Shown: positions 1 through 43,184 of the stretch, piece after piece | How the letters are laid out: each line of letters opens with the position of its first letter | Position numbering within the stretch: position 1 is the stretch's first letter | IMG/VR virus record: IMGVR_UViG_3300035168_000026 | Location: 1-43,184 of that record | From: a virus | DNA length: 43,184 nt | Direction: 5' to 3' (one strand) | Made by a program: the position numbers and the translations under genes | The notes under the pieces: model-generated | Told to the model about the DNA's origin: nothing | What the model saw: the letters and a program-made list of their open reading frames with translations, nothing else | Databases searched by the model: none

Positions 1-123
1 AAGGTCTCGAGGCTGATCTCCGACTACAAGCAGGGCAAGCCCGGCAAGGCCGACACGTGGCACGACCTGACGGTCTACTCGATGATGGCCCGCCGATTGC
101 AGGAGACTGGTCGATGGCCGTGA
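1..123 (+). CDS. MazG-like pyrophosphohydrolase, 3' end only (split by window start)
   Basis: This is the last 40 codons of the gene annotated whole at 42794-43180; the cut is caused only by where the circular map was opened. The visible residues include the conserved DTWHDLTVY stretch of the MazG-like family. The stop TGA at 121-123 lies inside the next gene, which starts with ATG at 114, giving a 10-base overlap that points to translational coupling. Confidence 0.85.
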   Translation, partial: KVSRLISDYKQGKPGKADTWHDLTVYSMMARRLQETGRWP

Positions 124-127
124 TCCT
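1..127. repeat. Terminal direct repeat, left copy (circular assembly overlap)
   Basis: These 127 bases are identical to 43058-43184. A repeat of exactly 127 bases at both contig ends is what a de Bruijn assembler with k=127 leaves on a circular or circularly permuted molecule. I read it as proof of completeness rather than as a biological terminal repeat. The unit genome is 43,057 bp. Confidence 0.93.
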
Positions 128-398
128 CAAATGGCCATTCCCAGTGGATCCGGTCGGGCGCGTCCTTGAGATCGAGGTGTCGGAGGGCAAGCCGGTGCTG
201 TTCGACTTCCAGCGGGGCGTGCCGACTTTGTGGATGCAGGTGGATGATTCTGGCGGCAACCAAGTGCGGCTGCGGCGGTTCGTTATGTTCGGCACTGGCG
301 ACCCTCAGCCAGACGAACTGACGCTTGAGCATATCGGCAGCGCAGTCGGCTATGAGGGCAAGCTCGTGCTGCACTGTTTCGAGGAGGTGCTCGGCTGA
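114..398 (+). CDS. Conserved phage protein, DUF7352-like
   Basis: A 94-residue protein starting at ATG 114, overlapping the end of the MazG-like gene. It looks like a small all-beta actinophage family (MAVILKWPFPVD start, an RRFVMFGTGDPQP block in the middle and a C-terminal LVLHCFEE). From memory this resembles DUF7352; its function is unknown. It has no signal peptide or membrane segment and so is predicted cytoplasmic. It is co-transcribed with purZ, dut and the MazG-like gene across the circular join and overlaps the next gene by one base (TGATG). The longer frame from 57 would overlap the MazG-like gene heavily and lacks a better ribosome-binding site. Confidence 0.7.
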   Translation: MAVILKWPFPVDPVGRVLEIEVSEGKPVLFDFQRGVPTLWMQVDDSGGNQVRLRRFVMFGTGDPQPDELTLEHIGSAVGYEGKLVLHCFEEVLG

Positions 399-3616: not shown

Positions 3617-4138
3617 ATGGGTCTAAGGTTGTTCGGAGTCCTGGCCACGATGGTGGTCGGTGTGCTCTTGGTGTTCGCCATGCCAGCGTTCGCCACCGGA
3701 GGAGGTAGCTGCCAGTGTCACGGTGATCCCGGCCCCAAGGGAGATCCTGGCCCGAAGGGGCCAAAGGGAGACCCAGGTCCTCCTGGCCCTCCAGGTGTTC
3801 CTGGTCCGAAGGGAGATCCCGGTCCTAGCGGTCCTGGCGGAGGCCAAGGTCCGCCCGGCCCCTCTGGCCCCGCAGGCCCTCCTGGCCCGAAGGGTGATCC
3901 CGGCACTCCTGGTGAAGCAGGCCCTCCCGGCCCGGCAGGGAAGACCGGTAAGTCCGGCACCGTGAAGCTCAAGCCGACGATCATCTACCGCACGGAGCCA
4001 GGGCTGCTCAAGAGGATCAAGCTCCTGGAGATCAAGATACGCAAGCTGGAGAAGTGGTGCCCCATGCCGCCAGAGCCATGCCCCCCTGGGTACACACGAA
4101 ACCCAGACGGCAAGTGCTCGCCACAAGGATCAGGCTAG
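3617..4138 (+). CDS. Secreted collagen-like protein
   Basis: A 173-residue protein from ATG 3617 with AAGGGAG upstream. A signal peptide ([19 protein letters not shown]) is followed by a CQC motif, about 75 residues of Gly-X-Y repeats of the GPKGDPGP / GPPGPPG type (rich in Pro and Lys/Asp, so able to form a stable triple helix), a short amphipathic helix ([18 protein letters not shown]) and a C-terminal cysteine-containing tail. Unlike the two collagen-like fibres at 15649 and 17492, whose repeats are Gly-X-Thr, this one is exported and sits in the early block beside a transglycosylase. It is the last gene before a strong terminator. It may coat the infected cell or the virion; the role is unknown. 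Confidence 0.75.
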
Positions 4139-9236: not shown

Positions 9237-10094
9237 ATGGCTGGACCCATCGCTGACTTCATCCCAGAGATCTGGTCAGCAAACATCCTGGAGACCCTGG
9301 AGCAGACGCTCGTCTACGCAGGGCCTTCGGTTGTCAACCGCAACTACGAGGGCGACATCGCGCAGGCTGGCGACACCGTCCACGTGACCTCGTTCGACGA
9401 TCCGACCATCGGGTCGTACACGGTCGAGACGAACATCACCGTCCAGAGCATCGGAGACGACACCGACTCGCTCGTGGTCGATCAGGCGAAGTACTTCGCC
9501 TTCGACGTGGACGACGTGATCCGGCGGCAGGCGCTGCCGGGCTGGGTCGAGTACGTGACGGGTCGCGGCGGCTTCAAGCTCGCCAGCACCATCGACTCGT
9601 TCTTCTCGGGCCTCATGTACACGGCGGTCAACGGGACGGCGAACGATCTCGGCGACCTGACCGTGGACATCAGCGACAACAACGCCTACGGGGCGTTGGT
9701 CAACCTGCGCACGACGCTCAAGAACAGCGAGACGCCGGATGCAGGCCGGTGGGTCATCGTGTCGCCGGAGTTCTACGCGGCACTGCTCCAGGACAACCGC
9801 TTCATCGACGCCAGCGCATCGGGCAGCGACCAGGCCCTGCGCAATGGCTTCGTCGGGCGGGCGGCGGGATTCGACGTGTTCGAGTCCACGACCGTGCCGG
9901 AGCCGACCGCCAACCGGTGGGCGATCATCGCCGGGCACAACATCGCCACGACCTACGCCAGCCAGCTGACGGAGGTCAAGGCACAGGAGCGCGAGCTTCG
10001 GTTCGGGCACCTGGTCAAGGGCCTGGCTCTCTACGGTGGGAAGGTCTTCCGCCCGGAGAACCTCGCCATGTACACGGCGGTCGTCCAGGCGTAA
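9237..10094 (+). CDS. Major capsid protein
   Basis: A 285-residue HK97-fold coat protein starting at ATG 9237 with GAAAGGAA upstream. It has features of the short P22/phiKZ-independent actinophage group: FIPEIWSANILETLEQ at the N terminus, GDTVHVTSFDDPTIG, DQAKYFAFDVDDV, and a long C-terminal domain with RWVIVSPEFYAALLQDNRF and GFDVFESTTVPE. There is no protease gene beside it and no extended delta domain, so maturation probably does not use a phage protease. Its stop overlaps the glycosyltransferase start (TAATG), which is an unusual neighbour. Confidence 0.92.
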   Translation: MAGPIADFIPEIWSANILETLEQTLVYAGPSVVNRNYEGDIAQAGDTVHVTSFDDPTIGSYTVETNITVQSIGDDTDSLVVDQAKYFAFDVDDVIRRQALPGWVEYVTGRGGFKLASTIDSFFSGLMYTAVNGTANDLGDLTVDISDNNAYGALVNLRTTLKNSETPDAGRWVIVSPEFYAALLQDNRFIDASASGSDQALRNGFVGRAAGFDVFESTTVPEPTANRWAIIAGHNIATTYASQLTEVKAQERELRFGHLVKGLALYGGKVFRPENLAMYTAVVQA

Positions 10095-10771
10095 TGCGCC
10101 TGACGTTCGTGACACCCGCGTGGGGCCGGTTTGCCGTCACCAGACTGGCGCTCGCTCAGCGTCGTCAGCTGTGCGACGAACTGGCCCTGCGCGGGATCAC
10201 GGCCGACTGTGTCGTGGTCGCGGACGACGAGAACGTCGAAGTGGCGGAGGAGTTCGGCTTTCAGTCGCTCCTCCGCCCGAATCTTCTCGGCTACAAGCTC
10301 AACTCCGGCATCGCGCTGGCGCTGGAGCAGGAAGCCGATTACGTGAGCTTCGTGGGATCAGACGACTGGATGCACCCGGATCTCTTCGTGCCGGACATGC
10401 TCGACGGCCGCACGGTGGTCTCTGGGCGGAAGCTCTGCCAGTTCGACCTGGCGACCGGCCAGAGCAAGGTGGTCGGGACGAGGAGTCCGTTCGGCGTGAT
10501 CCCGTGGCTCATCCCCAGGTCGCTCCTGAGGCCGGAGATGGTGCCCCACCACCAGGGCAGTGGGCTGGACCTCCATCTGGCCCTGGGCCTGGGCGTGGCC
10601 TCGTGGCGGATGCACGACCCGCACCCGCTAGCACGAGTGGACTTCAAGTCGAGCGTGGGTCTCACACCGTATGGGGCCGGTATCGGAGTCACGGCACCGC
10701 GCCTCGAAACACGCTATCCGGAGTCGCTGGTGGAGATGGTGTACACCTGCAACCTGGAGGCAGCAGCGTGA
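10094..10771 (+). CDS. Glycosyltransferase family 2-like (GT-A), first of tandem pair
   Basis: A 225-residue protein from ATG 10094, directly fused in expression to the capsid gene (TAATG). The GT-A nucleotide-sugar fold is indicated by the N-terminal RLTFVTPAWGR strand-turn, CVVVADDEN, the LGYKLNSGIALALEQ helix, and the metal-binding FVGSDDWMHPD (Asp 90 and 91). Such enzymes transfer a sugar from an NDP donor; here the likely acceptor is a virion protein or a glycan on it. It overlaps the next glycosyltransferase by GTGA. The donor and acceptor cannot be inferred from sequence. Confidence 0.8.
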   Translation: MRLTFVTPAWGRFAVTRLALAQRRQLCDELALRGITADCVVVADDENVEVAEEFGFQSLLRPNLLGYKLNSGIALALEQEADYVSFVGSDDWMHPDLFVPDMLDGRTVVSGRKLCQFDLATGQSKVVGTRSPFGVIPWLIPRSLLRPEMVPHHQGSGLDLHLALGLGVASWRMHDPHPLARVDFKSSVGLTPYGAGIGVTAPRLETRYPESLVEMVYTCNLEAAA

Positions 10772-11541
10772 GCAAGCTGGCGTTCATCGTGCCGACCTTC
10801 CGCCGGTTCGACCTCACCAGGGTCTGCCTCCAGCAGCTGCGGCGGACATGCACGGCCCTGGCAGACATGGGGATCCAGGCGACAGCTGTGGTCGTGGGTG
10901 ACGATCAGAGCTTGGACGTGGCGGAGCTTCTGGGCTTCGCGACCGTGCGCCAGGACAATCTACCGCTGGGGCGGAAGTGGAACGACGGGATCGAGTATGC
11001 CTGCCGCTACCTGGGGGTCGATTACGTCATGCCCTTCGGCACCGACAACTGGGCCGACCCAGACCTGATCGCCTTCCTCCCCTCCCCTGACTCGATCATG
11101 GCTCACCGGCTCTGCACGCTCGTCCACCAGGACGGACACAAGTCGGTCAAGCTGAAGGTCACTTATGACGGCGGAGACGGAATCCGCTGCATGCCAGCTG
11201 CGCTGCTCGAAGTCTTGAGCTTCCGGCCCTGCGACGAAGATCGCAACCGGGCAACGGACACCTCGATGCGCGACCGGCTGGGACGCAGGCTGGGGCGTAA
11301 GCCTCCGTTCCAGTACATCGACCTGCACCCGCTCCAGATCGTCAGCTTCCAGTCCACGGAGCAGCAGCTGAACACGTACGACGACCTGGCCATGGCGTTC
11401 GGCGTGGGTGAGAGCTTGTCGCCCTGGGACGACCTGGCGACAGTCTATTCGAGCCAGGCCATCGCCGAGGTGCGCGAGGTGTTCGCATCCAGACACAGCG
11501 GAGGCCCCGTCTCCGAGGCCTCCGTGGGAGCGACCGCGTGA
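10768..11541 (+). CDS. Glycosyltransferase family 2-like (GT-A), second of tandem pair
   Basis: A 257-residue paralogue or analogue of the preceding protein. It has LAFIVPTFRRFDLTR at the start, VVVGDDQS, LPLGRKWNDGIEYA, and FGTDNWADPD (Asp 93) in the place of the DxD motif. The similar architecture and the direct GTGA coupling suggest a duplication and two successive sugar additions. The C-terminal 60 residues (from FQYIDLHPLQIVSFQS) have no counterpart in the first copy. It ends 11 bases before the convergent reverse-strand gene. Confidence 0.78.
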   Translation: MSKLAFIVPTFRRFDLTRVCLQQLRRTCTALADMGIQATAVVVGDDQSLDVAELLGFATVRQDNLPLGRKWNDGIEYACRYLGVDYVMPFGTDNWADPDLIAFLPSPDSIMAHRLCTLVHQDGHKSVKLKVTYDGGDGIRCMPAALLEVLSFRPCDEDRNRATDTSMRDRLGRRLGRKPPFQYIDLHPLQIVSFQSTEQQLNTYDDLAMAFGVGESLSPWDDLATVYSSQAIAEVREVFASRHSGGPVSEASVGATA

Positions 11542-12003: not shown

Positions 12004-12606
12004 ATGAGCGTCCAGGCATATCCGGCGGCATGGTACGACGAGGTCATGGTCGAGGACGGCAGCCCGGCTATGCTGCCGCTGGAGGACAGCCCGTGGCTGA
12101 CCACCTACGAAGCGCTGGCCGGGATGATCGACCCGCACGAGGAGGTCGTTGACCTGGGCTGCGGCACCGGCCGCTTCATCGAGCTTTTGCGCCGCAACGG
12201 GCACTACGCCAAGATCACCGGAGTGGACTGGTCGGCAGCTGCGCTCGAAGCAGCCTTCGAGTACGTAAGCACCGGCCCGACCGAGAGGAACAGCTGGCAG
12301 CGGCTCGACCTGCTCGACTGGCAGCCCGATCCCGACCGCGCTGGCAACACGGTCTACGTGTCCAGCGAGGTGCTGGAGCACATGCCTGACGATCTCGACC
12401 TGGTGCGCCGCCTGCCGCCTGGCCATCGGTTCCTGTTCACCGTGCCCAACTTCTGGTCAGAGTCGCACGTGCGGATCTTCGCAAACGTGGGCGACCTGTG
12501 GGCACGCTATGATGGGTTGCTCCACTTCCGGCTCTGGCGCATGACCGGCACGGAGCGCCAGGGCATCCATATCTGCGAGACGCGAAGGAGGCATGACGCC
12601 TGGTGA
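12004..12606 (+). CDS. SAM-dependent methyltransferase (class I), first
   Basis: A 200-residue methyltransferase. Motif I is VVDLGCGTGRF (residues 48-58) and motif II is KITGVDWSAAALEAA; motif IV is represented by NTVYVSSEVLEHMPD, typical of small-molecule O- or N-methyltransferases. The target is unknown; the cassette context points to methylation of a sugar or of a glycan intermediate on the virion. ATG 12004 is preceded by TTCTTAAC; the 12-mer TCTTAACATGAG at 11997-12008 also occurs at 5424-5435 before terminase. There is no clear Shine-Dalgarno sequence. Confidence 0.8.
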   Translation: MSVQAYPAAWYDEVMVEDGSPAMLPLEDSPWLTTYEALAGMIDPHEEVVDLGCGTGRFIELLRRNGHYAKITGVDWSAAALEAAFEYVSTGPTERNSWQRLDLLDWQPDPDRAGNTVYVSSEVLEHMPDDLDLVRRLPPGHRFLFTVPNFWSESHVRIFANVGDLWARYDGLLHFRLWRMTGTERQGIHICETRRRHDAW

Positions 12607-12686
12607 CCATCGAGAGACTCATAGTGCCCGTGCTGTTCTTCATCCTGGGCTACATGTGGTGTTCGCTGGGCTGGTGGCCGGGTTGA
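12603..12686 (+). CDS. 27-residue membrane peptide between methyltransferase and ATPase
   Basis: GTG 12603 overlaps the methyltransferase stop (GTGA) and the frame ends at TGA 12684-12686, which overlaps the TTG start of the next gene (TTGA). The peptide has one hydrophobic helix (IVPVLFFILGYMWCSLGWW) after a short charged N terminus. Tight coupling on both sides supports translation. The alternative, an N-terminal extension of the next gene through this interval from ATG 12593, looks like a shadow frame of this peptide. Confidence 0.5.
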   Translation: MTIERLIVPVLFFILGYMWCSLGWWPG

Positions 12687-13687
12687 AGCTGACGCTCGAC
12701 AGAGCTTGGCTGCGCCCGGACTTCCAGCCGCGCTCGCTCACCGACTCGCCCTTCGGGGAGGCCATGCCTGCTTCTCTTGCATGGGGGGACCTCTCCTGGG
12801 CCGTCCGTGACCACGAGCCGTGGAAGGGGTCTCTTGAGTCCTTCGGGGCTGCGCTGGTCACGGAAGCCAGAGGGACGCTCAAGGCGACACATGCCCCGAT
12901 CCATCTCGCCGTGTCGGGCGGCTACGACAGCCGCATCCTCTTGGCGATCTGCGAGGAGGAGGGCCTGGACGTGCTGTGCTGCGGCGACGGGACGCAGGAG
13001 CCGGTCGCCGGTCGGACTCTCGACTACCTGGGCGTCCCAGCCTCGCGCCGGTACACTCACGATCTGGACCAGGACGACCCCTACGGGGTCGCCCAGGTCG
13101 AGATCATGGGGGCAGCGCCGCTGTACTTCGGCATGTCCTTCTTCACCCCAGACCCTGGGGCCGTGCTCGTCACGGGCCTGGGCGGAGGCGAGTGGTTCAG
13201 CTATCCGGCGGCGGGCTGGCACAACGGGCATCGTGCCCGGACTCCACGCAAGACGCTGGTGGACTGGTGGATGGACACTTGGCCCAACTACTGGCTGCTG
13301 CCGATCTCCTGGCGGACGGGATACAAGTCGGCAATCCATCCGTATTGCATGATCAGCTACGCACAGCTGGCCACCAAGTGCCATCCGGAGTGGCTGTTCG
13401 AGACCAGGCCGGAGATCGAACTCGATGCCGTGCGCGAGGCCATGCTGTACGCGCTCGATCCGAAGCTCTGCGACCTGGGCTATGCGCCGCACCGTTACGA
13501 CTGGCGGCTGACCCAGGCCCAGGAAGAGTGGATCGATGATCGATTCCGGCGCTCGTGGCTGGGGAGCTTGCCGGAGATGGAAGGCGTCCGGCCGTCGCGC
13601 ATGCACCACGATCCCTTCGCCTGCACGATGGGCGGGCTGGCCACCTGGTGCGAGGCCCTGGTCGAGCAGGGAGCGACCATCACATGA
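12683..13687 (+). CDS. Asparagine-synthetase-like ATP pyrophosphatase
   Basis: A 334-residue PP-loop protein. HLAVSGGYDSRILLAI (SGGYDS at residues 78-83) is the ATP-pyrophosphate loop of the asparagine synthetase C-terminal domain; the N-terminal glutaminase (class II amidotransferase, Cys2) is absent. Related stand-alone domains adenylate a carboxylate and join it to an amine, and occur in polysaccharide and aminosugar clusters. With two methyltransferases, glycosyltransferases and a WbqC-like protein around it, a role in making an amide-bearing sugar is a reasonable inference. TTG 12683 is chosen because it overlaps the preceding peptide's stop; ATG 12593 would add 30 residues. Confidence 0.75.
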   Translation: MKLTLDRAWLRPDFQPRSLTDSPFGEAMPASLAWGDLSWAVRDHEPWKGSLESFGAALVTEARGTLKATHAPIHLAVSGGYDSRILLAICEEEGLDVLCCGDGTQEPVAGRTLDYLGVPASRRYTHDLDQDDPYGVAQVEIMGAAPLYFGMSFFTPDPGAVLVTGLGGGEWFSYPAAGWHNGHRARTPRKTLVDWWMDTWPNYWLLPISWRTGYKSAIHPYCMISYAQLATKCHPEWLFETRPEIELDAVREAMLYALDPKLCDLGYAPHRYDWRLTQAQEEWIDDRFRRSWLGSLPEMEGVRPSRMHHDPFACTMGGLATWCEALVEQGATIT

Positions 13688-25941: not shown

Positions 25942-27270
25942 GTGGCGGTCACAGATTCGCCAGGGCCGGGCCGGGTGCTGATCGCGCTGGCGGACGGCCC
26001 ACTGGAGCCTGAGCCGACCTGGACGCGATTCGACATGCTGTCCACCTGCCGGTGCTACGGATTCGACTCCTACGCCGGTCGGCAGTCGGAGCTTGACACG
26101 ACCGACACCGGCACCGCCACCGCGTTCTTTCACGACCGCGACCGTACGCTGGACGACGACGACCTGGTGGGGATGCAGATCATGTTCCAGCTGTACAACC
26201 CGGTCACCGACAGCTGGCACCCGCGCTGGCGCGGGCACATAGACGACGTTGCCCACGACTTGGTGCCCGTCGCTGCACCTGACATGCCGCTGTCGGACGC
26301 GCAGATCATCTGCACTGGGATCTTCGACTACCTGGGTGGGTGCAAGATGCTGCCGGGCGTGTTCGGCAACTTTGCCGACCAGCTGTCGGCGGACACCGTG
26401 TTCTACGAGAACGGGCGCTTCGATGACCGCTGCATCAAGCTGCTGGACGACGCGCTGATCGACGTGGACATGCGGGTGACCTTCACGGGCAACGTGTACG
26501 TGAACGAGACGCAGTACGACGTGGACGACGTGATCCTCCAGGCTCTGAGAGATGCGTGTGATGCGGAGTTCCCTGGTGTGGCCAACGTCTATGAGGATCG
26601 GTTCGGCCGGGTGGCGATCCACGGGCGACACGCGAGGTTCGACCCGGAGGGCACGGCAGCCGGTGGAGCCAACTGGGACTTCAATCGCTGGTACGCCGCC
26701 ACCAGGGAGGACGTGACCGGCGACAACGCGCAGATCCGCGAGTTCGGGTACAATCGCCCACGCTCGCGGATCATCAACAGCTACGTGGCCTGGCCACGCG
26801 AGGACGAGGCAGGCGTGCCCATCGACAGGGACATCATCGCCACCTTGCTGCGTACCGACCCCACGTCCATCGGGATCTACGGGTATCGCGGCGACGACGC
26901 ACCGGACCTGATCCTGCAGCGCGAGTACGCGGCTTCTGGTGACCGCACCGGCACGGAGCTATGCGGTCTGTTTGGGGACTTCTACATCGCCAACTACGCG
27001 GCAGTGCGGAAGGCGATCCAGCGTGTCACGCTCAAGGCGCTGCGGGCCGACGACCCCAGGGCAGCCGCCACGTGGGATACGATGTGCCGCATGGACATCT
27101 CGGACGGCATGAACCTGACGGTTGACGAGGCTGGCCTGGCGGACACGCCGTTCTTCATCGACGGCGTATCGGTCGAGTGCCGGGTGCTCAACCCCGACCA
27201 CGACATGGTGACCGTGACTCCCAACCTGACACCGGCCAGCTATTACGACACGGACGTGTTCGACGTATGA
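25942..27270 (+). CDS. Minor tail protein (tail tip)
   Basis: A 442-residue protein from GTG 25942, directly after the tape-measure stop. Features are beta-rich: TRFDMLSTCRCYGFDSYAGR, TATAFFHDRDRTLDDDDLVG, WHPRWRGHIDDVAHDLVP, ICTGIFDYLGG, and VNETQYDVDDVILQALRDAC. The position matches distal tail/tail-tip hub proteins, and the fold of repeated beta domains agrees. It overlaps the next gene by ATGA. Which hub component it is cannot be said. Confidence 0.75.
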   Translation: MAVTDSPGPGRVLIALADGPLEPEPTWTRFDMLSTCRCYGFDSYAGRQSELDTTDTGTATAFFHDRDRTLDDDDLVGMQIMFQLYNPVTDSWHPRWRGHIDDVAHDLVPVAAPDMPLSDAQIICTGIFDYLGGCKMLPGVFGNFADQLSADTVFYENGRFDDRCIKLLDDALIDVDMRVTFTGNVYVNETQYDVDDVILQALRDACDAEFPGVANVYEDRFGRVAIHGRHARFDPEGTAAGGANWDFNRWYAATREDVTGDNAQIREFGYNRPRSRIINSYVAWPREDEAGVPIDRDIIATLLRTDPTSIGIYGYRGDDAPDLILQREYAASGDRTGTELCGLFGDFYIANYAAVRKAIQRVTLKALRADDPRAAATWDTMCRMDISDGMNLTVDEAGLADTPFFIDGVSVECRVLNPDHDMVTVTPNLTPASYYDTDVFDV

Positions 27271-31082: not shown

Positions 31083-32213
31083 TTAGCTGACTGCGCCAGC
31101 CTTGGACTGGAGCCGACCGCCGCGCCGCTTGGCTGCCGGAGCGGGCTTCGGGTCAGGCTTGACCTCGCCGTCCACCTTCTTGGCCTCGCGCTTCTTGGCG
31201 GCTGCCCTGACCTTGGAGATTCCGGCCTTCGCCTTGCTGGCCTTCGCCTTCTCCGCCTTCGCCGCCTTGGCCTCGATGATCTCGCGCTTGCGGGTCAGGA
31301 ATCCGACCCAGTTGCGCACCTGCAGCCGCTCCAGAGCGTCCTTGACTTCGAAGGTCATGAGCGCCTTCTTGTCCTTGATGCCCAGGGCGGAGTTCACGAG
31401 GTCGCTCTTGTAGCGGGCGTCCATGCCGGGCCTGAAGTTGCCGGACTCGGACAGGTAGACCTCTGGGGTGCCCAGGTCGCGGGCGGTCTGCTTGGGGGCC
31501 TTTTTGTCGGCCATCGTCTTGATCCTTTCGATCTGCCGGGCGGACGCGTCAACGTCCTGCATCCGGCGCTCCAACTCTGCAGGATTGCGGAGTTGGTCGA
31601 GCTTCTGTGCTGCTGACTTGCGCTGCTCCAGCAGGGCCATGATCTGCCTGCTGCAGCGGTCGGATTCGGCTGTCACCGCTGGTGACACGTTCTCGAATCC
31701 GGACTTCGACTCCTTGGCCCAGGCCTTGTCGTAGTCGGCCTGGACCTGGATCAGGTCGGCGTCGATCCGCTCGACCTTGGACTGAAGCTCTGCGATCTCG
31801 GCGTCGAGCTTCACCTTGATCGGGTGGTCGTCGGCGATGGTCATGACCTCTTCGAGCGCTGCCGCGAACTCCGGCGACTCCATCTCCGTCTTCAGCTGAG
31901 CGACTGCCGTGTCGATTACTGCCCGCGACGGCCCCGTCGTGGCCTCTTCCTGGCTCTCCGTGACCACGGGAGCCTCCGGCCCGGCCTCCGGGCCTCCCTG
32001 GGCGTACTCGTCGTACGGGAGGCCGGAGACGGCCCACGCCTTCACCTGGTCGTTGTCCATGCCCGTGATGCGCCGGATCTGCGCTCGTGCGTTCTTCACG
32101 GTCTGGAGGCCGAGGGTCCAGTCGTAGGACTGATCGCTCTTGCGAGCGCCCTGCTGTGCCATGCGGGCCATAAGCTCGTCCGGCGTCATGTCCTTGATGC
32201 GCTTGGCAGCCAT
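31083..32213 (-). CDS. Large basic coiled-coil protein (nucleoid-like C terminus)
   Basis: A 376-residue protein from ATG 32213. Residues about 100-245 are coiled coil (KLDAEIAELQSKVERIDADL, CSRQIMALLEQRKSAAQKLD), then a middle domain (TARDLGTPEVYLSESGNFRP, SDLVNSALGIKDKKALMTFE), and a Lys/Ala-rich C terminus (EIIEAKAAKAEKAKASKAKA) like histone-tail or nucleoid proteins. DNA binding is likely; the family is not recognised. It has its own promoter (copy D) and a possible upstream in-frame leaderless start at ATG 32252. Part of the dispersed repeat encodes its VTESQEEATTG segment. Confidence 0.7.
   Translation of the reverse strand: MAAKRIKDMTPDELMARMAQQGARKSDQSYDWTLGLQTVKNARAQIRRITGMDNDQVKAWAVSGLPYDEYAQGGPEAGPEAPVVTESQEEATTGPSRAVIDTAVAQLKTEMESPEFAAALEEVMTIADDHPIKVKLDAEIAELQSKVERIDADLIQVQADYDKAWAKESKSGFENVSPAVTAESDRCSRQIMALLEQRKSAAQKLDQLRNPAELERRMQDVDASARQIERIKTMADKKAPKQTARDLGTPEVYLSESGNFRPGMDARYKSDLVNSALGIKDKKALMTFEVKDALERLQVRNWVGFLTRKREIIEAKAAKAEKAKASKAKAGISKVRAAAKKREAKKVDGEVKPDPKPAPAAKRRGGRLQSKAGAVS
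31935..31967 (+). repeat. Dispersed short repeat, copy 2
   Basis: CGTCGTGGCCTC, then TGGCTCTCCGTGACCAC (31951-31967). This 17-mer is identical to 7113-7129, with a 1-base length difference in the spacer. Here it lies inside the coiled-coil gene and is read in frame. Confidence 0.5.
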
Positions 32214-32929: not shown

Positions 32930-33135
32930 GCCGAGGCCCATCGGTTCGGCAGGACGGGCGCGATGCCAAGCTGCGCCGCCAGCACGCGCTGGCATTGCAG
33001 GCACTCGCACCCGGCTTCGGCCCTAGGGTCGAGCTTGCGCCAGTTGCGGCGGTAGAGCGTCCGGCCACACAGGGTCGTGCCGTGCTCCTCGTTGACGAGG
33101 TGCCGCTTGCCGGATCTCTTGTGAACGGAGATCAT
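32926..33135 (-). CDS. Small zinc-finger-like protein
   Basis: A 69-residue basic protein (HKRSGKRHLVNEEHGTTLCG, then RRNWRKLDPRAEAGCECLQC). Three or four Cys with a C-x-C-x2-C ending and flanking His suggest a zinc knuckle. ATG 33135 overlaps the helicase stop (ATGA), so it is translated with the helicase and may assist it on DNA. Confidence 0.6.
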   Translation of the reverse strand: MISVHKRSGKRHLVNEEHGTTLCGRTLYRRNWRKLDPRAEAGCECLQCQRVLAAQLGIAPVLPNRWASA

Positions 33136-34742
33136 GCTGGGACTCCTTCCGTTGCTGGGAGCGTGGATTGAAGCACAGCCACGTTGGTGATGTCAAGCTG
33201 GACCTTGGCCCGCGTGGCGGCGACGTACAGGAGACGAAGCTCCTCGTCTGACGGGTTCTCCGGCGGGAAGTCGCCCGCCAGCTGGACGGAGTCCCACTCA
33301 CGGCCCTTGGCCTTGTGGGCGGTCGAGACGACGACATCGGCCTCGTCCTCGCGGATCGTCTTGTCGAGCGCGTCCAGGATGACCGGCACGCCGAAGTCGT
33401 CCACGAGCTTCACCATCAGCTGAAGCTCTGCGCCCAGCTGATCCTCTTGCACGTAGGCTTGGACTTCTCCCCAGGAGTCGAAGCAGGCGAGGTCGGGGTG
33501 CTCTGTCGGCAGGCCCGCCATCACGTCTGCGGCTGCTCGTGCGAACGCGACGACCTCTTTGCCTCCGCCGACCAGGCAGGCCCGCTGCTCGTTCTTCTGT
33601 GCTCGCAGGACGGTCGCGACGGCGACGGCATTGGTGCGGGTCAGGATCGCGGTGGGGGAGTCTAGGGCCTCCACGACGGAGGGGATCGAGTCGGTGCCCA
33701 CCAGGCGAAGCTCTGCGTTGAGCAGGCCCAGGATCTCGTTGGCGACCTCGGCGATTGCCGGGCCGAAGCGGAAGCTCTGCGTCAGGTAGGCCCTGGCGTC
33801 GGCGTCCACCTGCTGGAGCGCGTTGACTGCGCCGGTGAACGAGTAGATCTGCTGCTGCGAGTCGCCGACCCAGACCAGCTGTGCGTGGTCGGCCTGCGCG
33901 GCGATGATCGCCTGCATGACCGGGTTGGCGTCCTGCGCCTCGTCGAAGAGGATGTAGTCGGTGTTGATCGTCGGCTGGCTCAGCTGCCAGGCCTTGAGGT
34001 AGTGGTCGTGGCGGTAGGGCAGGATGCCGGTCTCCGACATCAGGTCGGCCCAGGCGGCTTCGAGCTTCGGCAGGAGCACGCGAGCCACGAGCTTGTTCTG
34101 CTCGTAGGAGCGCACGCCATCGGTGACGGGGTCGATGCCCTCGATATAGGGGAAGTTGCGGACGGAAGGCTCCAGGTCTGCGGTCTGGCAGAAGCGGATC
34201 ACTGCCGCCATGACGTGCCCGCCCAGGAAGCTCTTCGGCAGCTGCTTGCTCTTGCCGTCGAGGCCCTGCACCTGGATCGCTTCGACACCCAGGCGGAGCG
34301 CGATGTCCAGCGACTTCATCCGCTTGCTGCCGCGCAGTCGGTGGCTGAACTTCGTGCCCCAGGCCTTGTACGCGAGCGAGTGCGCGGTCGAGGAGGAGAC
34401 GGTGGCGGGCATCTTGGCCTGGGCCTCCGTCACGATGGACTTGTTGAAGGCGACGTACTGCCCACGCCGGTTCGGTGCCGACTTGGCCAGCAGGAGGAGC
34501 GTGCTCGTCTTGCCGGTGCCAGCGCCAGCCTCCACGGCCAGCGAGTCGCCGGAGTTGAACAGATCGAGCGCGTGAGCTTGCTCGCCCGTGGGCGCGAAGC
34601 TCGTGACCGGCTTGTCTGCCACCGGCTTGGCGCAGGCCTCATGCGTGACGCCTTCGCCCTTCGTCCACTCGACGCGCTCGCCCGCTGCCACGGGCTGGCC
34701 GCACGAGCGGCAGGTGCCTGGGAACTTCGCGGTGATTGTCAT
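33132..34742 (-). CDS. SF1 (UvrD/Rep-type) DNA helicase with N-terminal zinc finger
   Basis: A 536-residue helicase. An N-terminal zinc module (C11, C14, H34, C37) precedes the motor: Q-motif region FAPTGEQAHALD, Walker A EAGAGTGKTS (73-79 core), motif II DEAQDANP, motif III WVGDSQQQIYSFTGA, and motifs V/VI STAHKAKGREWD and LLYVAATRAKVQ. These enzymes are 3'-5' translocases used in repair, recombination and restart. Start ATG 34742 has AAGGAGG. The frame is open back to the promoter (34797-34825), but no ATG lies six bases after this -10 (TAC instead), unlike the other copies. It heads the reverse operon. Confidence 0.88.
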   Translation of the reverse strand: MTITAKFPGTCRSCGQPVAAGERVEWTKGEGVTHEACAKPVADKPVTSFAPTGEQAHALDLFNSGDSLAVEAGAGTGKTSTLLLLAKSAPNRRGQYVAFNKSIVTEAQAKMPATVSSSTAHSLAYKAWGTKFSHRLRGSKRMKSLDIALRLGVEAIQVQGLDGKSKQLPKSFLGGHVMAAVIRFCQTADLEPSVRNFPYIEGIDPVTDGVRSYEQNKLVARVLLPKLEAAWADLMSETGILPYRHDHYLKAWQLSQPTINTDYILFDEAQDANPVMQAIIAAQADHAQLVWVGDSQQQIYSFTGAVNALQQVDADARAYLTQSFRFGPAIAEVANEILGLLNAELRLVGTDSIPSVVEALDSPTAILTRTNAVAVATVLRAQKNEQRACLVGGGKEVVAFARAAADVMAGLPTEHPDLACFDSWGEVQAYVQEDQLGAELQLMVKLVDDFGVPVILDALDKTIREDEADVVVSTAHKAKGREWDSVQLAGDFPPENPSDEELRLLYVAATRAKVQLDITNVAVLQSTLPATEGVPA

Positions 34743-34796
34743 GGAAGACCTCCTTGCCGGGATCGTGTGTACCGGCGGTCGCTGGGTGTAAACCGC

Positions 34797-34825
34797 ATTA
34801 AACCAAACGGAGCGGACGAGCACAA
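34797..34825 (-). promoter_or_regulatory. Dispersed promoter element, copy E (helicase operon)
   Basis: On the minus strand: TTGTGC (34825-34820), a 17-bp spacer, TTTAAT (34802-34797), GCGGTT. It lies back-to-back with a forward promoter whose -35 is at 34840-34845. The leader reads ACACCCAGC, similar to the other copies. Confidence 0.65.
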
Positions 34826-35660: not shown

Positions 35661-36645
35661 GACGCTGACCCACTCGAAGCGGGCTGCATTCCTCAACTGC
35701 CCGCGCTATTACTTCAACCGACACGAGCGGCACCTCCGGCCTCGTGTGGCCAAGCCCGGTCGGCGTCGTGGTGCCGCCTTCGGTGACGCGATCTTCGCGA
35801 TCTCCGACTCCGGCATTCCTGCGCTGAACGTGGATACCCAGACCCGGATGGAGATCATCTGCGACTCGGTGGACGAGTCATACTCCAGCATCTTCCCCTC
35901 TAACCAGGAGGAGTCAGACGTGCTGGAGCTTGAGAAGGTCAAGATCAGGCAGCTGGCGTTCTACTACGTCGGGCGGTATGGGGTCGAGGCGGGCAAGCGC
36001 GAGATCGTGTTCGACCTGCCGCTGATCAACCCGGCCACTGGCCGTCACTCACGAGCCTTCCGGCGCGGAGGCAAGATCGACGGGCTGCTGAGCCTGGGGG
36101 GCGGGCGCTGGCGTGTGATTGAGGACAAGTTCGTGGGCCAGATCCAGAAGGCCATGATAGACCGCCTGCCGCTCGACGCTCAGAGCAACGAGTACGTGGA
36201 TGCTCTGTCGCAGCTGGGCCTGACGGCGGAGGTAGCCTATCGGCACACACTCAACCCGACCTCCGCGCCGAAGCTGGTCGGCACCGGCGAAGCTCGTAGA
36301 CGTGAGACTCTGGATGAGTACGAGCTTCGCCTGGCCGAGGACATCGAGGCTCGGCCGGAGCATTACTTCGATGAGCAGATCCTCCAGTTCCCAAAGGATC
36401 GGCTCGATGACTACCGGCTCGGCCGGTGGGGCACGGCCCGCAAGATCCTGGACGCGAGGCTGCTGGCCAAGCGCCTGGGCTGGCAGGCGGCGTGGCCCAT
36501 GAATCCGTCGCGATGTTGGGAGTACGGAGGATGCGAGTTCATCCCCCTGTGCACTCGCGGCGAAGACGCCATCGACCTCTACACGACCGAGGTCGATAAC
36601 CCAGAGCTAGGAAAGGAGCAGGATGTCGAGTACCACACGAGCTAA
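35653..36645 (+). CDS. PD-(D/E)XK exonuclease, Cas4/RecB-like, with Fe-S cluster cysteines
   Basis: A 330-residue nuclease. The N-terminal LTHSKRAAFLNCPRYYFNRH is the classic RecB-family opening with Cys 16; the active site is GKIDGLL (Asp 143) and WRVIEDKF (Glu 157, Lys 159). Cys 288, 294 and 300 near the end (CWEYGGCEFIPLC) complete a four-Cys Fe-S cluster as in AddB and Cas4. Such enzymes resect ends to feed recombination. Followed by a Sak4-like ATPase, it forms a phage recombination pair. TTG 35653 is preferred (overlap with TGA 35658); GTG 35644 is the alternative. Confidence 0.82.
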   Translation: MTETLTHSKRAAFLNCPRYYFNRHERHLRPRVAKPGRRRGAAFGDAIFAISDSGIPALNVDTQTRMEIICDSVDESYSSIFPSNQEESDVLELEKVKIRQLAFYYVGRYGVEAGKREIVFDLPLINPATGRHSRAFRRGGKIDGLLSLGGGRWRVIEDKFVGQIQKAMIDRLPLDAQSNEYVDALSQLGLTAEVAYRHTLNPTSAPKLVGTGEARRRETLDEYELRLAEDIEARPEHYFDEQILQFPKDRLDDYRLGRWGTARKILDARLLAKRLGWQAAWPMNPSRCWEYGGCEFIPLCTRGEDAIDLYTTEVDNPELGKEQDVEYHTS

Positions 36646-37471
36646 GAAGGCCACGGAGAGCCTTCCGGAGGCCACCGGCGTGGCGGAGGGCCGGACGCCC
36701 CAGGGCGCCGCACGAGGGTCACGGAAGGCCACGGGAGGCCAGGACGGCACCACGAAGCGGCAGCCGCCCGCGCTACCAACAGCCAAGACGCGCTCCGGGC
36801 CGTCGCTGGAGGAGAAGACCGTGCTCCTGTACGGGCCTCCAGGGATCGGCAAGAGCACGCTCGCCAGCGAGTGGGCCGGAGGTGACGTGTTCTTCTTCGA
36901 CTGCGCCGGTGAGCTTAACGACATCGAGTGCTACAGCCAGCGGATCGGCAACTGGGTCGAGTTCAAGGAGTACTGCTGGTCGCTGGAGACCGACCGTGGG
37001 CCGTTCAAGGTAGCGGCCATCGACACCGTGGACGTGCTGGCCACGTTCTGCGCTCAGCACATGCGCAAGAAGCTGGGCATCGTCCACGAGTCCGACGCCG
37101 AATGGGGGAAGGGCTGGGCCATGGTGAAGGAGGAGTTCGCCTCCACCGTGGTGAAGCTCGCGAGCCTGCCCGGTCTCGGCCTCATCCTCATCAGCCACTC
37201 GAAGGAGGTGGAGATCAAGACCAGGACGGCGACCTACAACAAGCAGGTGCCGTCCCTCAGCGGCGGGATCGGCGATGTGTGCCTGAATATGCCCGACCTC
37301 GTCCTGCACCTGGACTGGTCAGAGCAGGACTCACGTGTGATCCACACGAAGCCGAGTCCTTATTACGACGCCAAGGAGCGGAGCACCACTCCCAGACTCC
37401 CAGCGGAGATCCCGTGGCTGCTTGGCACCTCCGGCTACAACGTTCTGAAAGAGGTGTGGTACGATGGCTAA
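36623..37471 (+). CDS. Sak4-like RecA-fold ATPase (single-strand annealing/recombinase)
   Basis: A 282-residue AAA_24/Sak4-type ATPase. A disordered, Ala/Gly/Arg-rich N-terminal 60 residues precedes Walker A LLYGPPGIGKSTLAS (71-79), Walker B VAAIDTVDVL (Asp 134), LILISHSKEVEIK (sensor region) and LSGGIGDVCLNMPDLVLHLD. Sak4 proteins anneal or exchange single strands and cooperate with phage SSB, here probably 38253-38723. The N-terminal segment is encoded by two inverted copies of the dispersed repeat, so this extension may be a recent addition. ATG 36623 has AAAGGAGC. Confidence 0.82.
   Translation: MSSTTRAKKATESLPEATGVAEGRTPQGAARGSRKATGGQDGTTKRQPPALPTAKTRSGPSLEEKTVLLYGPPGIGKSTLASEWAGGDVFFFDCAGELNDIECYSQRIGNWVEFKEYCWSLETDRGPFKVAAIDTVDVLATFCAQHMRKKLGIVHESDAEWGKGWAMVKEEFASTVVKLASLPGLGLILISHSKEVEIKTRTATYNKQVPSLSGGIGDVCLNMPDLVLHLDWSEQDSRVIHTKPSPYYDAKERSTTPRLPAEIPWLLGTSGYNVLKEVWYDG
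36655..36745 (-). repeat. Two inverted copies of the dispersed short repeat
   Basis: On the minus strand, GTGGCCTCCGGAAGGCTCTC lies at 36678-36659, and a second copy (GGCCTCCCGTGGCCTTCCGTG and flanks) at 36745-36716. They resemble 7098-7129 and 31935-31967 and code here for KATESLPEATG and RKATGGQ in the ATPase's N-terminal extension. Confidence 0.4.
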
Positions 37472-39500: not shown

Positions 39501-39776
39501 ATGGCTCCACCAGCGACATGCCCAGCCTGCAAGCGACCCCTGCCCAAAGAGAAGACCGCCGAGGACGACGCTCCAGCACGCGGCAAGAAGTGGACCAGGC
39601 TCACCATCGTGATGCCGGAGCAGTCCGATAAGGACGCCATCGAGGAGAAGCTCGAAGTCATGGCCTCCAGGTACGAGGAGGTGACCGGCCGTAAGGTGGC
39701 GAGATTCATGCTGCTCGATTGGATCCTGCATGAGATGATCTCCTCCGGAATCCTCCCAGCGGAGGAGGGTGGATGA
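39501..39776 (+). CDS. Hypothetical protein with N-terminal zinc-ribbon half
   Basis: A 91-residue protein from ATG 39501 with a strong AAAGGAGG. CPACKRPLPKEK at the start is half a zinc ribbon; the remainder (WTRLTIVMPEQSDKDAIEEK, LEVMASRYEEVTGRKVARFM) is a ribbon-helix-helix-like or small helical domain. It directly precedes the initiator gene (ATGA overlap) and may assist it. Confidence 0.55.
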   Translation: MAPPATCPACKRPLPKEKTAEDDAPARGKKWTRLTIVMPEQSDKDAIEEKLEVMASRYEEVTGRKVARFMLLDWILHEMISSGILPAEEGG

Positions 39777-40543
39777 GCATCAAGGTCACAGCCTGGGTCT
39801 ACGACCAGCGCGTCGGCGACCACATCGCCAAGTCGGTGCTGGCCAAGCTCGCAGACAACGCGAACGACGACGGCGTGGCCTGGCCGTCGATCAAGCTCAT
39901 CAGTGAGCAGACCGAGATCCCGGATCGCACCGTCAAGCGCAAGCTCGCGTGGCTCGCGGACGCGGGCTGGATCTCGGTGTCGAAGCGCCGGTCAAGCTCC
40001 GGCCGGTGGGGCCACAACGTCTACCAGCTGGCAGTACCGTGGGCCACCGTGGCCTCCGGTTACCGTGGGCCATCGGAGGTCGTCACCGTGGGCCAGAGCT
40101 TGGCCCAGGAACCGTCAGGGGAATCATCACTTCCTCCGGAGGCTGCCCACGTGCTCGCGCACGCGGGCACGCTGGTCGCGGGCTGGATCGACAACTACCG
40201 CAGCGTGGCCAACGAGGATCCGCCGAAGCGCACCATCGGCCAGATGTCTCGGCAGATTAAGCAGCTGCTCGATGGAGGAGCTAAGCCCGAGACCGTGAGC
40301 GTGGCCCTGGCGTTGGTGGTGGACAAGCGCTTAGCTCCAAGCTCTCTCCCCACGGTGATGTTGGAGGCGGCAGCCGGGCCTCGAGAGCCAAAGCAGCAGC
40401 AACGATTCGGCAGGGGCCTGACCGCCGACCAGGTGGCCCGTGTCGCCCAGCAACTACGACAGAAGGAGGAGATCGATGAAAGAGTCGGAAGCAACGGAGG
40501 CTCTGGGCATTCTGCTGGCGGGCTTCCCCCAGGAAGCGCTTGA
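39773..40543 (+). CDS. Replication initiator-like helix-turn-helix protein (lambda O analogue)
   Basis: A 256-residue protein. Residues 1-85 are a winged HTH of the replication-initiator/DnaD N-terminal type: AWVYDQRVGDHIAKSVLAKL, GVAWPSIKLISEQTEIPDRT, VKRKLAWLADAGWISVSKRR, and WGHNVYQLAVPW. A linker encoded by direct repeats (40035-40095) follows, then a helical C-terminal domain. This mirrors lambda O: DNA-binding domain, iterons in the middle of the gene, partner domain, then the helicase-loader gene overlapping its end. It is expected to melt the origin and recruit host replicative helicase. Confidence 0.75.
   Translation: MSIKVTAWVYDQRVGDHIAKSVLAKLADNANDDGVAWPSIKLISEQTEIPDRTVKRKLAWLADAGWISVSKRRSSSGRWGHNVYQLAVPWATVASGYRGPSEVVTVGQSLAQEPSGESSLPPEAAHVLAHAGTLVAGWIDNYRSVANEDPPKRTIGQMSRQIKQLLDGGAKPETVSVALALVVDKRLAPSSLPTVMLEAAAGPREPKQQQRFGRGLTADQVARVAQQLRQKEEIDERVGSNGGSGHSAGGLPPGSA
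40035..40095 (+). repeat. Iteron-like repeats inside the initiator gene (putative origin)
   Basis: ACCGTGGGCCA occurs at 40036-40046, 40062-40072 and 40085-40095, with a degenerate ACCGTGGCC at 40046-40054. The intervals are 26 and 23 bases. They lie just after the DNA-binding-domain coding region, as in lambda O, where origin iterons sit in the initiator gene. Confidence 0.55.
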
Positions 40544-40793
40544 ACCGGCGACCGGCGAAGTCTGGGTCAAGCTGCTCACGGACTTGGACGCGGACGCCAC
40601 CATGGCCGTGATCTATCAGTGGATCAAGACGGAGCCGAAGTTTCCAGCCATGGCCCAGCTGCGCCAGGCCGTGCGTCAATATCGTAGTCGGCAGGAGTCG
40701 GAGCGCGTGCGCCTGTCGCTGTCACGGACAGCTGGCCCGCTGGAGGTTCCGGCAGAGGTCAAAGAGTGGCAGTCGTCAGTGGGATGGGATTGA
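40476..40793 (+). CDS. Helicase-loader-like protein (lambda P analogue position)
   Basis: A 105-residue all-helical protein from ATG 40476 with AGAAGGAGGAG, overlapping the initiator gene by 68 bases. The fold pattern (SEATEALGILLAGFPQEALE, VWVKLLTDLDADATMAVIYQ, WIKTEPKFPAMAQLRQAVRQ) matches short phage replisome organiser or loader-type proteins. Position after the initiator supports a role in delivering host DnaB. No AAA motif is present, so it would act without ATP hydrolysis. Confidence 0.65.
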   Translation: MKESEATEALGILLAGFPQEALEPATGEVWVKLLTDLDADATMAVIYQWIKTEPKFPAMAQLRQAVRQYRSRQESERVRLSLSRTAGPLEVPAEVKEWQSSVGWD

Positions 40794-41063: not shown

Positions 41064-41296
41064 AAGTTGTCGAAGGCAGCAACGGATGGATCTACGTCGA
41101 TGACGACGGCGACGAATGGTACGCACAACGCACCGAAGAGGCCACCGACCGCGACACGTGGGATCTGGAGGCAGACAGCATCCGCGAACGGATCTGGCTC
41201 CAGCTTGGATCCGGGCGGCTGATCTTGGGCGAGACGCCGGTGGCCGAGGAGGGCCAGGTCGTCATGATGTTCCAGCAGATCGAGGCGTCGACATGA
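41060..41296 (+). CDS. Hypothetical 78-residue acidic protein
   Basis: It starts at ATG 41060 (ATGA overlap) and overlaps purZ by ATGA. It is acidic and aromatic (GWIYVDDDGDEWYAQRTEEA, DTWDLEADSIRERIWLQLGS, VVMMFQQIEAST). The position immediately before purZ, coupled on both sides, suggests a function linked to Z-nucleotide metabolism or its control; that is only inference. Confidence 0.58.
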   Translation: MKVVEGSNGWIYVDDDGDEWYAQRTEEATDRDTWDLEADSIRERIWLQLGSGRLILGETPVAEEGQVVMMFQQIEAST

Positions 41297-42360
41297 GGGG
41301 TCGAGCCACAGCCCTGGTCGGAGCGCAATATGGATCTGAAGGGAAGGGCCTCGTGGCCGCTGCCCTGGCCAACCAGTTCGAGGTCCACGTCCGCACCGGC
41401 GGGCCGAACGCGGGCCACACGTTCTATCACGATCACGAGAAGTTCGTGGCACGCTCGATCCCGTGCGGATGGATCAACCCGGACGCGCTGCTCCTGGTCG
41501 GGCCGGGCGCTGTCATCGACCTCGAAGTGTTCAAGCGCGAGCTTCAGGAGATCAACGACCGGGCAGATGTCGCTGAGCGTCTGACGGTCGATTACAGGGC
41601 GACCGTCATCAGCCACAGCCAGCACCAGGGCGAGGGCGGCGTCCACGGCGTGGCTCATCGCGAGATCGGCTCGACCGGCGAGGGAGTCGGCCTGGCCAGG
41701 ATGTCCAGGATTAATCGCGACACGCTGATCTCCACCGACATCTCGCCATTCGCACACATCAGAGCACACGACCGGCGCGAGGAGTTCGAGAGCATGGGCG
41801 TCCAAGTCGAGGACGTGGCGTCGATCCTCCACAGCGAGATCGAGGCTGGGGCGGAGGTGCTGCTCGAAGGGACGCAGGGATGCGGCCTGAGCATGACCCT
41901 CGGACCCTGGCCTTACTGCACGAGCGCCGACACCAACGCCGCGCAGCTGGCGTCAGATGCCGGGATCTCGCCCAGCGACGTGAAGGAGACTGTGCTGGTG
42001 GCCCGCACGTACCCGATCCGGGTCGCCGGTAAGTCTGGGCCACTGTGGAGTGAGACGACCTGGGAGGAGGTCGGCCAGAAGCCGGAGACCACGACCGTGA
42101 CCAAGAAGGTGCGCCGCGTCGGGCTGTGGAACGACGACCAGGTGCGGCAGGCCAGCCGGGTCAATCATCCGGCGCTGCTGGTCATCACCTTCCTGGACTA
42201 CATCTTCCCTGAGACAGCTGGGATTCGCAACTGGAGGGCGCTGCCGCAGCCAGCACTCGACTGGCTGATCGAGAAGGAGCGTCTGCTGAATCTTCGCGTG
42301 ATCGGCGTCGGGACGGGTCCAGACTCGTATTGCCCCATCGGGCAGCTGGGTGCGCCATGA
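41293..42360 (+). CDS. purZ: PurZ: N6-succino-2-amino-2'-deoxyadenylate synthase
   Basis: A 355-residue member of the adenylosuccinate synthetase family, shorter than PurA (about 430). ALVGAQYGSEGKG carries Ser 15 where PurA has its catalytic Asp (GDEGKG); this Asp-to-Ser change is the hallmark of phage PurZ, which accepts dGMP instead of IMP. PurA landmarks retained are NAGHT (His 42), EGTQGCGLSMTLGPWPY, TYPIRVAG, and VGTGPDS. The enzyme joins dGMP and aspartate using ATP; host PurB, guanylate kinase and NDK then complete dZTP. It precedes dut (ATGA overlap) and the MazG-like gene, as expected for a Z-nucleotide cluster. Host PurA contamination is ruled out by length and motif. Confidence 0.88.
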   Translation: MRGRATALVGAQYGSEGKGLVAAALANQFEVHVRTGGPNAGHTFYHDHEKFVARSIPCGWINPDALLLVGPGAVIDLEVFKRELQEINDRADVAERLTVDYRATVISHSQHQGEGGVHGVAHREIGSTGEGVGLARMSRINRDTLISTDISPFAHIRAHDRREEFESMGVQVEDVASILHSEIEAGAEVLLEGTQGCGLSMTLGPWPYCTSADTNAAQLASDAGISPSDVKETVLVARTYPIRVAGKSGPLWSETTWEEVGQKPETTTVTKKVRRVGLWNDDQVRQASRVNHPALLVITFLDYIFPETAGIRNWRALPQPALDWLIEKERLLNLRVIGVGTGPDSYCPIGQLGAP

Positions 42361-42797
42361 TTGTCGAGTTCACGAAGCTCGCACCGGAGGCGGTCGTCCC
42401 CATGACAGCCTATCCGGGCGACGCAGGGTGGGATCTCCACGTGCTGGAACCGACCTGGGTGGCTGTCAACTCTGGCGTTGATGTCCGCACAGGTATCGCC
42501 GTGGCGATCCCACCTGGATATTACGGCCGGATCGTCGGCCGGTCGAGCGCTCTTCGCAAGAAGGGCCTGCTCGTCGTGGAGGGCATCATCGACGCGGGCT
42601 TCAGGGGCGAGCTATTCAGTTACGCCTACTGCCCGCCGGTCACCAGGAACGTGACCACCAACGGAGTGCAGCTGAAGGCGGGCGACTCAATCGCCCAGCT
42701 GATCCTGTGCCCGATCCCCAGCATCGAGTGGACGGAGGTGGACGAGTTGCCACAGTCAGAGCGAGGCACCAACGGATTCGGGAGCAGCGGGCGATGA
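42357..42797 (+). CDS. dut: dUTPase
   Basis: A 146-residue trimeric-type dUTP diphosphatase with all five motifs: AGWDLHV (1), GIAVAIPPGYYGRIVGRSS (2), GIIDAGFRGEL (3), GDSIAQLIL (4) and ERGTNGFGSSG (5). It converts dUTP to dUMP and pyrophosphate, keeping uracil out of DNA and supplying thymidylate synthesis. It overlaps purZ and the MazG-like gene by ATGA, so all three are made together. Confidence 0.92.
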   Translation: MIVEFTKLAPEAVVPMTAYPGDAGWDLHVLEPTWVAVNSGVDVRTGIAVAIPPGYYGRIVGRSSALRKKGLLVVEGIIDAGFRGELFSYAYCPPVTRNVTTNGVQLKAGDSIAQLILCPIPSIEWTEVDELPQSERGTNGFGSSGR

Positions 42798-43180
42798 GCG
42801 CGGCTGACCAAGTGCGCAGGTTCGGACAGGCGCTCGTCGGTGAGGCTCCGGAGATGGACGACATCGAAGCGTGGTGGCTACACGTCTCGATGAAGGACCT
42901 GGACGCCGCCCGCCCGAAGATTGACGAGTATGGCGGAGCCGGTGAGGGGTCGAGCGACCTCCGGGTCATGGGAGACGCGCTGGCGGAGCTTTGCGGGACG
43001 CACGATGCACCGGACGCGGTCAAGCAGGAGTTGGCCTGCTGGTTCTACGCTCTGGGTAAGGTCTCGAGGCTGATCTCCGACTACAAGCAGGGCAAGCCCG
43101 GCAAGGCCGACACGTGGCACGACCTGACGGTCTACTCGATGATGGCCCGCCGATTGCAGGAGACTGGTCGATGGCCGTGA
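42794..43180 (+). CDS. MazG-like nucleotide pyrophosphohydrolase (MazZ candidate)
   Basis: A 128-residue helical protein of the actinophage MazG-like group: ARPKIDEYGGAGEGSSDLRV, CWFYALGKVSRLISDYKQG, and DTWHDLTVYSMMARRLQETG, whose Glu/Asp residues would bind Mg2+. In known Z-genome phages MazZ hydrolyses dGTP to dGMP, the substrate of PurZ; sharing an operon with purZ makes that the likely role here. It continues through the circular join (the last 123 bases are repeated as 1-123) and overlaps the gene at 114 by 10 bases. Confidence 0.78.
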   Translation: MSAADQVRRFGQALVGEAPEMDDIEAWWLHVSMKDLDAARPKIDEYGGAGEGSSDLRVMGDALAELCGTHDAPDAVKQELACWFYALGKVSRLISDYKQGKPGKADTWHDLTVYSMMARRLQETGRWP

Positions 43181-43184
43181 TCCT
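43058..43184. repeat. Terminal direct repeat, right copy
   Basis: Identical to bases 1-127; see the left copy. Genes running over this point (the MazG-like protein and the 94-residue protein at 114) are continuous on the circle. Confidence 0.93.

Follow-up and report, generated by a model that had tools for sequence, protein, structure and literature searches.

The whole 43,184-nucleotide (nt) stretch of DNA analyzed here, termed the window, is best explained as the complete genome of an uncultivated tailed phage of bacteria. Its PurZ probably represents a lineage beside the PurZ0 proteins, and the phage probably makes 2-aminoadenine (Z) nucleotides, which the host replicase would incorporate into its DNA; taken as a whole, we consider this explanation reasonably likely. 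It builds on gene content and order, family placement, key residues, completeness, and the absence of four polymerase families, all of which are observed in the window. A preliminary description had predicted Z-DNA from the PurZ-type gene. This core is well supported by profiles, tree, and the DutZ-like and DmtZ-like neighbors, while details of that description were off. A broader reading, in which we have about as much belief as doubt, is that a third phage PurZ lineage, unknown in cultured phages, includes a subgroup of complete genomes that build Z-DNA by the host replicase, with pool control by DutZ and DmtZ and without a phage polymerase. In this broader reading, a helical protein encoded in the cluster is an undescribed Z-pathway component that PurZ0 phages also have, possibly with a DUF5664 counterpart in Arthrobacter phages.

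The two contig ends share an exact 127-bp direct repeat (1-127 = 43058-43184), indicating that the genome is circular and complete, with a length of 43,057 bp. The record is listed as linear; the exact end repeat speaks against a truncated contig. Because the contig is terminally redundant, the Z cluster runs across the joined ends and on into positions 1-841 (Table 1). The joined order is PurZ, DutZ-like protein, helical third open reading frame (ORF), small ORF (114-398), and DmtZ-like protein (398-841), each overlapping the next. ATGA overlaps were found between 41293-42360 and 42357-42797 and between 42357-42797 and 42794-43180, making translational coupling plausible. Coupling of PurZ to a dUTPase and a MazG-like enzyme had been described previously. 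The overlaps and the dUTPase-fold match (PF00692, E=2.4e-25) are in keeping with this, but MazG was not recovered by Pfam, PHROG, NCBIfam, PDB profile, fold, or profile-profile comparison. At the DNA level, relatives of the terminase-portal region were limited to short 70% patches in Arthrobacter and Curtobacterium phages.

Table 1. Features of the window discussed in the text
Feature	Position	Strand	Basis or remark
Direct terminal repeat, left copy	1..127	.	Identical to 43058-43184; codes C-terminus of third ORF
Small ORF (MAVILKWPF...)	114..398	+	Between helical protein and DmtZ-like protein after joining ends
DmtZ-like NDT-superfamily protein, 147 aa	398..841	+	PF05014 E=1.5e-4; triad Tyr4/Asn55/Glu82, Asp10
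UvrD/Rep-like superfamily 1 helicase	33132..34823	-	phrog_1967 E=8e-87
Sak4-like recombinase/ATPase	36623..37471	+	Replication-recombination block; Pfam/PHROG profile searches
Lambda-O-like replication initiator (HTH)	39773..40543	+	phrog_1032 E=1e-23, phrog_391 (O-like) E=7e-22, HTH_36
Conserved small ORF in helicase-loader position	40476..40793	+	By position only; no Pfam match; homologue in L030
PurZ (PurZ0-like, predicted GTP-dependent), 355 aa	41293..42360	+	Ser15 in GSEGKG; profiles, tree, residues
DutZ-like protein (dUTPase fold), predicted dATP/dGTP/dUTP diphosphatase, 146 aa	42357..42797	+	PF00692 E=2.4e-25
Helical protein of PurZ0-linked family, 128 aa; possible nucleotide pyrophosphohydrolase (putative)	42794..43180	+	29 phage-collection matches
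Direct terminal repeat, right copy	43058..43184	.	Exact copy of 1-127

The window PurZ begins MRGRATALVGAQYGSEGKGL... and has Ser at residue 15 (AQYGSEGKG), where E. coli PurA has Asp. The earlier account of a PurA homologue of about 355 residues with Ser15 in GSEGKG was thus accurate (ORF 41293-42360, 355 aa). The matches to PF00709 (E=4.9e-54) and to PHROG 1211 "2-aminooxy adenylosuccinate synthetase" (E=3e-73) lie far beyond chance. Against the NCBIfam PurZ model NF038379, the protein scored 261.6 bits, under the cut-off of 300, and against archaeal-type PurA (PRK04293), it scored 263.5 bits (cut-off 368). Along with S15, the His of NAGH, the Asp in ITFLDY, and GTGPD are kept. The guanine-recognizing Asp, equivalent to E. 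coli Asp333, is kept in the window clade and in PurZ0, whereas phiVC8, Bhz20, and S-2L have Asn or Gln at this position. This Asp is linked to GTP use in PurA enzymes generally and in the reported PurZ0 structure. Since it is kept as in PurZ0, GTP is the likely phosphate donor, and the predicted reaction would yield dSMP from dGMP, Asp, and GTP.

Relatives of the window PurZ are distant. Its identity to proteins of named phages was ~39% at most, with most top full-length matches at 35-36%. Scanning viral contigs with the window PurZ as a single protein returned no relatives; the alignment-based scan returned 273, the best 80 of which were kept (at most 54% identity). In the IQ-TREE phylogeny, the window PurZ fell in a 28-row phage clade with 100/98 support. 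The nearest group was PurZ0 (94/81), the phiVC8/S-2L-type PurZ stood apart, and canonical PurA was cut off by a 100/100 branch. On this tree, the window clade is probably sister to PurZ0, and its branch appears so far unseen in any cultured phage. Because the 28-row clade is separate and the window PurZ lies outside the PurZ0 clade, we filed the protein as PurZ0-like rather than as PurZ0. A constraint placing the window and contig L030 within PurZ0 came at a cost of 39.7 log units, and the AU test did not formally reject it (p-AU 0.071). Nor did this test reject a union of the window clade and chromosomal Ser-type PurA (p=0.203), so the deep branching is not firm.

Among known systems, the phages phiVC8, S-2L, and SH-Ab 15497 had been put forward as models. 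These members of the ATP-type cluster share with the window the Ser at the catalytic position. They differ in having GSTGKG instead of GSEGKG, Asn or Gln at the Asp333 equivalent, and DatZ and MazZ, for which no counterpart was found in the window; S-2L also has a PrimPol. Neither loss of the guanine-recognizing Asp nor grouping with phiVC8/S-2L, which mark ATP-type PurZ, was observed for the window PurZ. Canonical PurA (E. coli, Pyrococcus) resembles it in fold and in most substrate-binding motifs, but has the catalytic Asp13 in place of the Ser. The closest characterized proteins are the GTP-type PurZ0 of actinophages, represented by Gordonia phage Ghobes, Arthrobacter phages Wayne and Dino, and Microbacterium phage Cicada, which replace the models named before. 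Like the window, these phages have a Ser-type PurZ with the guanine-recognizing Asp and a DutZ adjoining or near purZ, and several have DmtZ in the cluster. In contrast, the window PurZ is only ~35-36% identical to theirs over most of its length and belongs to a separate clade, and an O-like initiator is located upstream of purZ in place of DNA polymerase I.

The product of the second gene, previously called simply a dUTPase, does have the dUTPase fold, but its affinities are with DutZ. Its 60 best phage rows were all from Arthrobacter PurZ0 phages, including Wayne (51.9%). In a tree with dUTPases from E. coli, five chromosomes, and seven other phages as the comparison set, it was placed within a 39-row DutZ clade (100/96) of PurZ0- and window-clade-linked proteins, apart from the E. 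coli, actinobacterial, and most phage dUTPases. Among its members are Ghobes DutZ and the enzyme of Korravirus (Dino), which is related to that of Wayne. A long-branch dUTPase of Moorella phage MTATph1 (L194), which was not among the PurZ-linked rows, also lies inside it. Ghobes DutZ and Wayne DmtZ-DutZ hydrolyze dATP, dGTP, and dUTP, and dutZ was present in 98/98 PurZ0 genomes surveyed (PMC12884076). By homology, the window protein is predicted to be a dATP and dGTP diphosphatase, which would supply dGMP in this phage.

The DmtZ-like protein showed weak sequence likeness to known DmtZ (3e-5), and tblastn against the phage collection gave no match; the call was therefore made by profile, fold, and triad. 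Its predicted model (pLDDT 88.7) matched the folds of 2-deoxyribosyltransferases, MilB, and DNPH1. Residues Tyr4, Asp10, Asn55, and Glu82 correspond to Tyr6, Asp12, Asn77, and Glu103 of DmtZ (DmtZ numbering according to PMC12884076). Y4, D10, and E82 are invariant and N55 is near-invariant. By analogy with DmtZ, the protein may be a dAMP hydrolase, possibly with transfer to Z base.

The third ORF matched no Pfam, PHROG, or NCBIfam family, and its predicted all-helical model gave no significant fold match. A MazG-like enzyme had been assumed here, with the MazZ role of supplying dGMP. This assignment is not upheld: the family profile found no MazG in the PDB, and profile-profile comparison gave MazZ a probability of 0.1%. 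The main text of PMC12884076 leaves MazG unmentioned. A PHROG 474 "phosphofructokinase" match, seen for 4 of 18 family members with 5e-4 at best, was not trusted. By tblastn, the family had 29 matches in 50,697 phage records, all from Microbacterium, Streptomyces, Gordonia, Curtobacterium, and Micrococcus phages, and PurZ0 phages of these genera have the helical third protein as in the window. All 29 appear to be PurZ0 phages. In those also found among the PurZ matches, and in Olihed, the homologue is located shortly downstream of purZ; the remaining ones were tied to PurZ0 by per-genus counts that agree with those of the PurZ matches. Locus by locus, the family was present at 50 of 53 PurZ0-group loci, 4 of 28 window-clade loci, and none of the 79 chromosomal loci. 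In Arthrobacter PurZ0 phages, purZ is instead followed by what we read as a DUF5664-type protein, which hints at an equivalent role for the two proteins. An unnamed helical family tied to PurZ0 phages is thereby pointed out, and it is directly assayable.

Unlike in nearly all Z phages, no phage DNA polymerase was detected in the window genome. PF00476, PF09250, PF07733, and PF00136 had no matches in the window genome, L030, L009, L025, L028, or L033. The search covered polymerase families A, B, C, and PrimPol, none of which was found in the window; the phage family A polymerase (PF00476) is the mark of DpoZ-bearing Z phages. Terminal repeats (exact, 30 bp, in L030; 210 bp, 99.5%, in L009) indicate that the relatives L030 and L009 are probably complete, whereas L025, L028, and L033 may be fragments. 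Since 19/28 window-clade loci have pol I, the missing polymerase characterizes the part of the clade to which the window belongs. O-like replication initiators were found in the window, L030, L009, and L025, the last of which also has a DnaC-like loader. Two phage PurZ groups have been described, each paired with its own DpoZ (PMC12884076). According to PMC8065100, S-2L also has no DpoZ, its sole polymerase being a non-selective PrimPol. In E. coli with the S-2L genes, cell polymerases incorporate Z into DNA, where it takes the place of 12.1% of the adenine in plasmids and 3.9% of that in the chromosome (PMC8342488). That these genes suffice makes Z incorporation by a host replicase credible, though not full replacement. 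No DatZ homologue was found in the window genome; with neither DatZ nor a Z-selective polymerase found, complete replacement may not be reached.

In the pathway we propose, the DutZ-like enzyme would hydrolyze dATP to dAMP, thereby depleting the competitor, and dGTP to dGMP, the substrate of PurZ. PurZ would then join dGMP and aspartate, with GTP, to succino-amino-dAMP, from which host PurB and kinases would produce dZTP. The DmtZ-like protein would remove dAMP and may shift its deoxyribose phosphate to free Z base. The O-like initiator would recruit the host replicase, and Z would be incorporated from a biased pool and not through polymerase selectivity. The enzyme activities in this scheme are predictions, as are the presence of Z in the DNA and the degree of replacement. 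If the third lineage with its polymerase-free branch is real, it would show that control of nucleotide pools together with the host's unmodified replicase can suffice for Z replacement, and that the Z pathway extends well past cultured phages.

A scan of prokaryote genomes revealed a separate Ser-type PurA family in bacterial and archaeal contigs, which formed its own group in the tree (96/86). These proteins resemble the window PurZ in their catalytic Ser and length. In many of the contigs, the gene is closely followed by a dCTP-deaminase (DCD)/dUTPase-superfamily gene, a pair reminiscent of purZ-dutZ (L101, L102, L106, L108, L109, L111, L114, L123, L125, L128, L133, L138, L139, L147, L152, L154, L160, L164, L169, and L173). 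PADLOC gave no defense-system match for these pairs or for the window proteins. Because chromosomes carry Ser-type PurA, the Ser column alone is not diagnostic of Z-DNA, and the substitution by itself is an unfit predictor. The PurZ/PurA phylogeny suggested in the preliminary description places the window PurZ outside canonical PurA, but its Ser column is indecisive.

This family bears on the strongest competing explanation, which we consider unlikely: the action of the PurZ homologue yields a modified purine deoxynucleotide or alters the purine pools, and Z is not a true genome constituent, either because the host replicase still picks dATP or because the product has another purpose, as may hold for chromosomal Ser-type PurA. 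The lack of DpoZ and DatZ matches, the DCD-like neighbors in non-phage contexts, and the deep placement left open by the AU test fit this view. However, the DutZ-like and DmtZ-like partners match those of PurZ0 phages, neither DmtZ-like nor helical proteins occurred at any of the 79 chromosomal Ser-type PurA loci, and cell polymerases do put Z into DNA (PMC8342488).

Ordinary nucleotide scavenging, in which the PurA-like enzyme would use IMP and be accompanied by a genuine uracil-excluding dUTPase and a generic phosphohydrolase, is very improbable. The Asp-to-Ser change, the position outside canonical PurA, the grouping of the window dUTPase with DutZ, and the NDT-fold DmtZ-like gene in the same cluster all argue against it, even though the PRK04293 PurA score is as good as that for PurZ, dUTPase-family proteins are widespread among phages (1098 records), and DutZ enzymes also hydrolyze dUTP (PMC12884076). 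Least probable of all is a Z phage whose polymerase went unrecognized or lies on a lost segment: PurZ0 phages usually have pol I upstream of purZ, and unassigned ORFs of at least 300 aa are present at 10036-11541, 12593-13687, 25942-27270, and 31083-32213 (-), but three of these four lie within the structural block, loss of a segment is improbable given the exact end repeat, and the terminally redundant L030 and L009 also have no pol I and have an O-like initiator upstream of purZ.

Additional genes were observed in the window and at related loci. PurB-like adenylosuccinate lyase genes lie beside some PurZ loci (L004, L033, L037, L053, and others) and were found by profile at 23/53 PurZ0-group loci; some phages may thus not need host PurB. 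The protein encoded at 828-1334, adjoining the DmtZ-like gene, had no match in a Pfam search and by eye has the look of a RuvC-type resolvase; its counterpart occupies the same place in L030 (12366-12902). A glycosyltransferase-like gene is located amid structural genes (19717-20781; phrog_13126, 1.1e-15), and the protein encoded at 3617-4138 contains collagen-like Gly-X-Y repeats.
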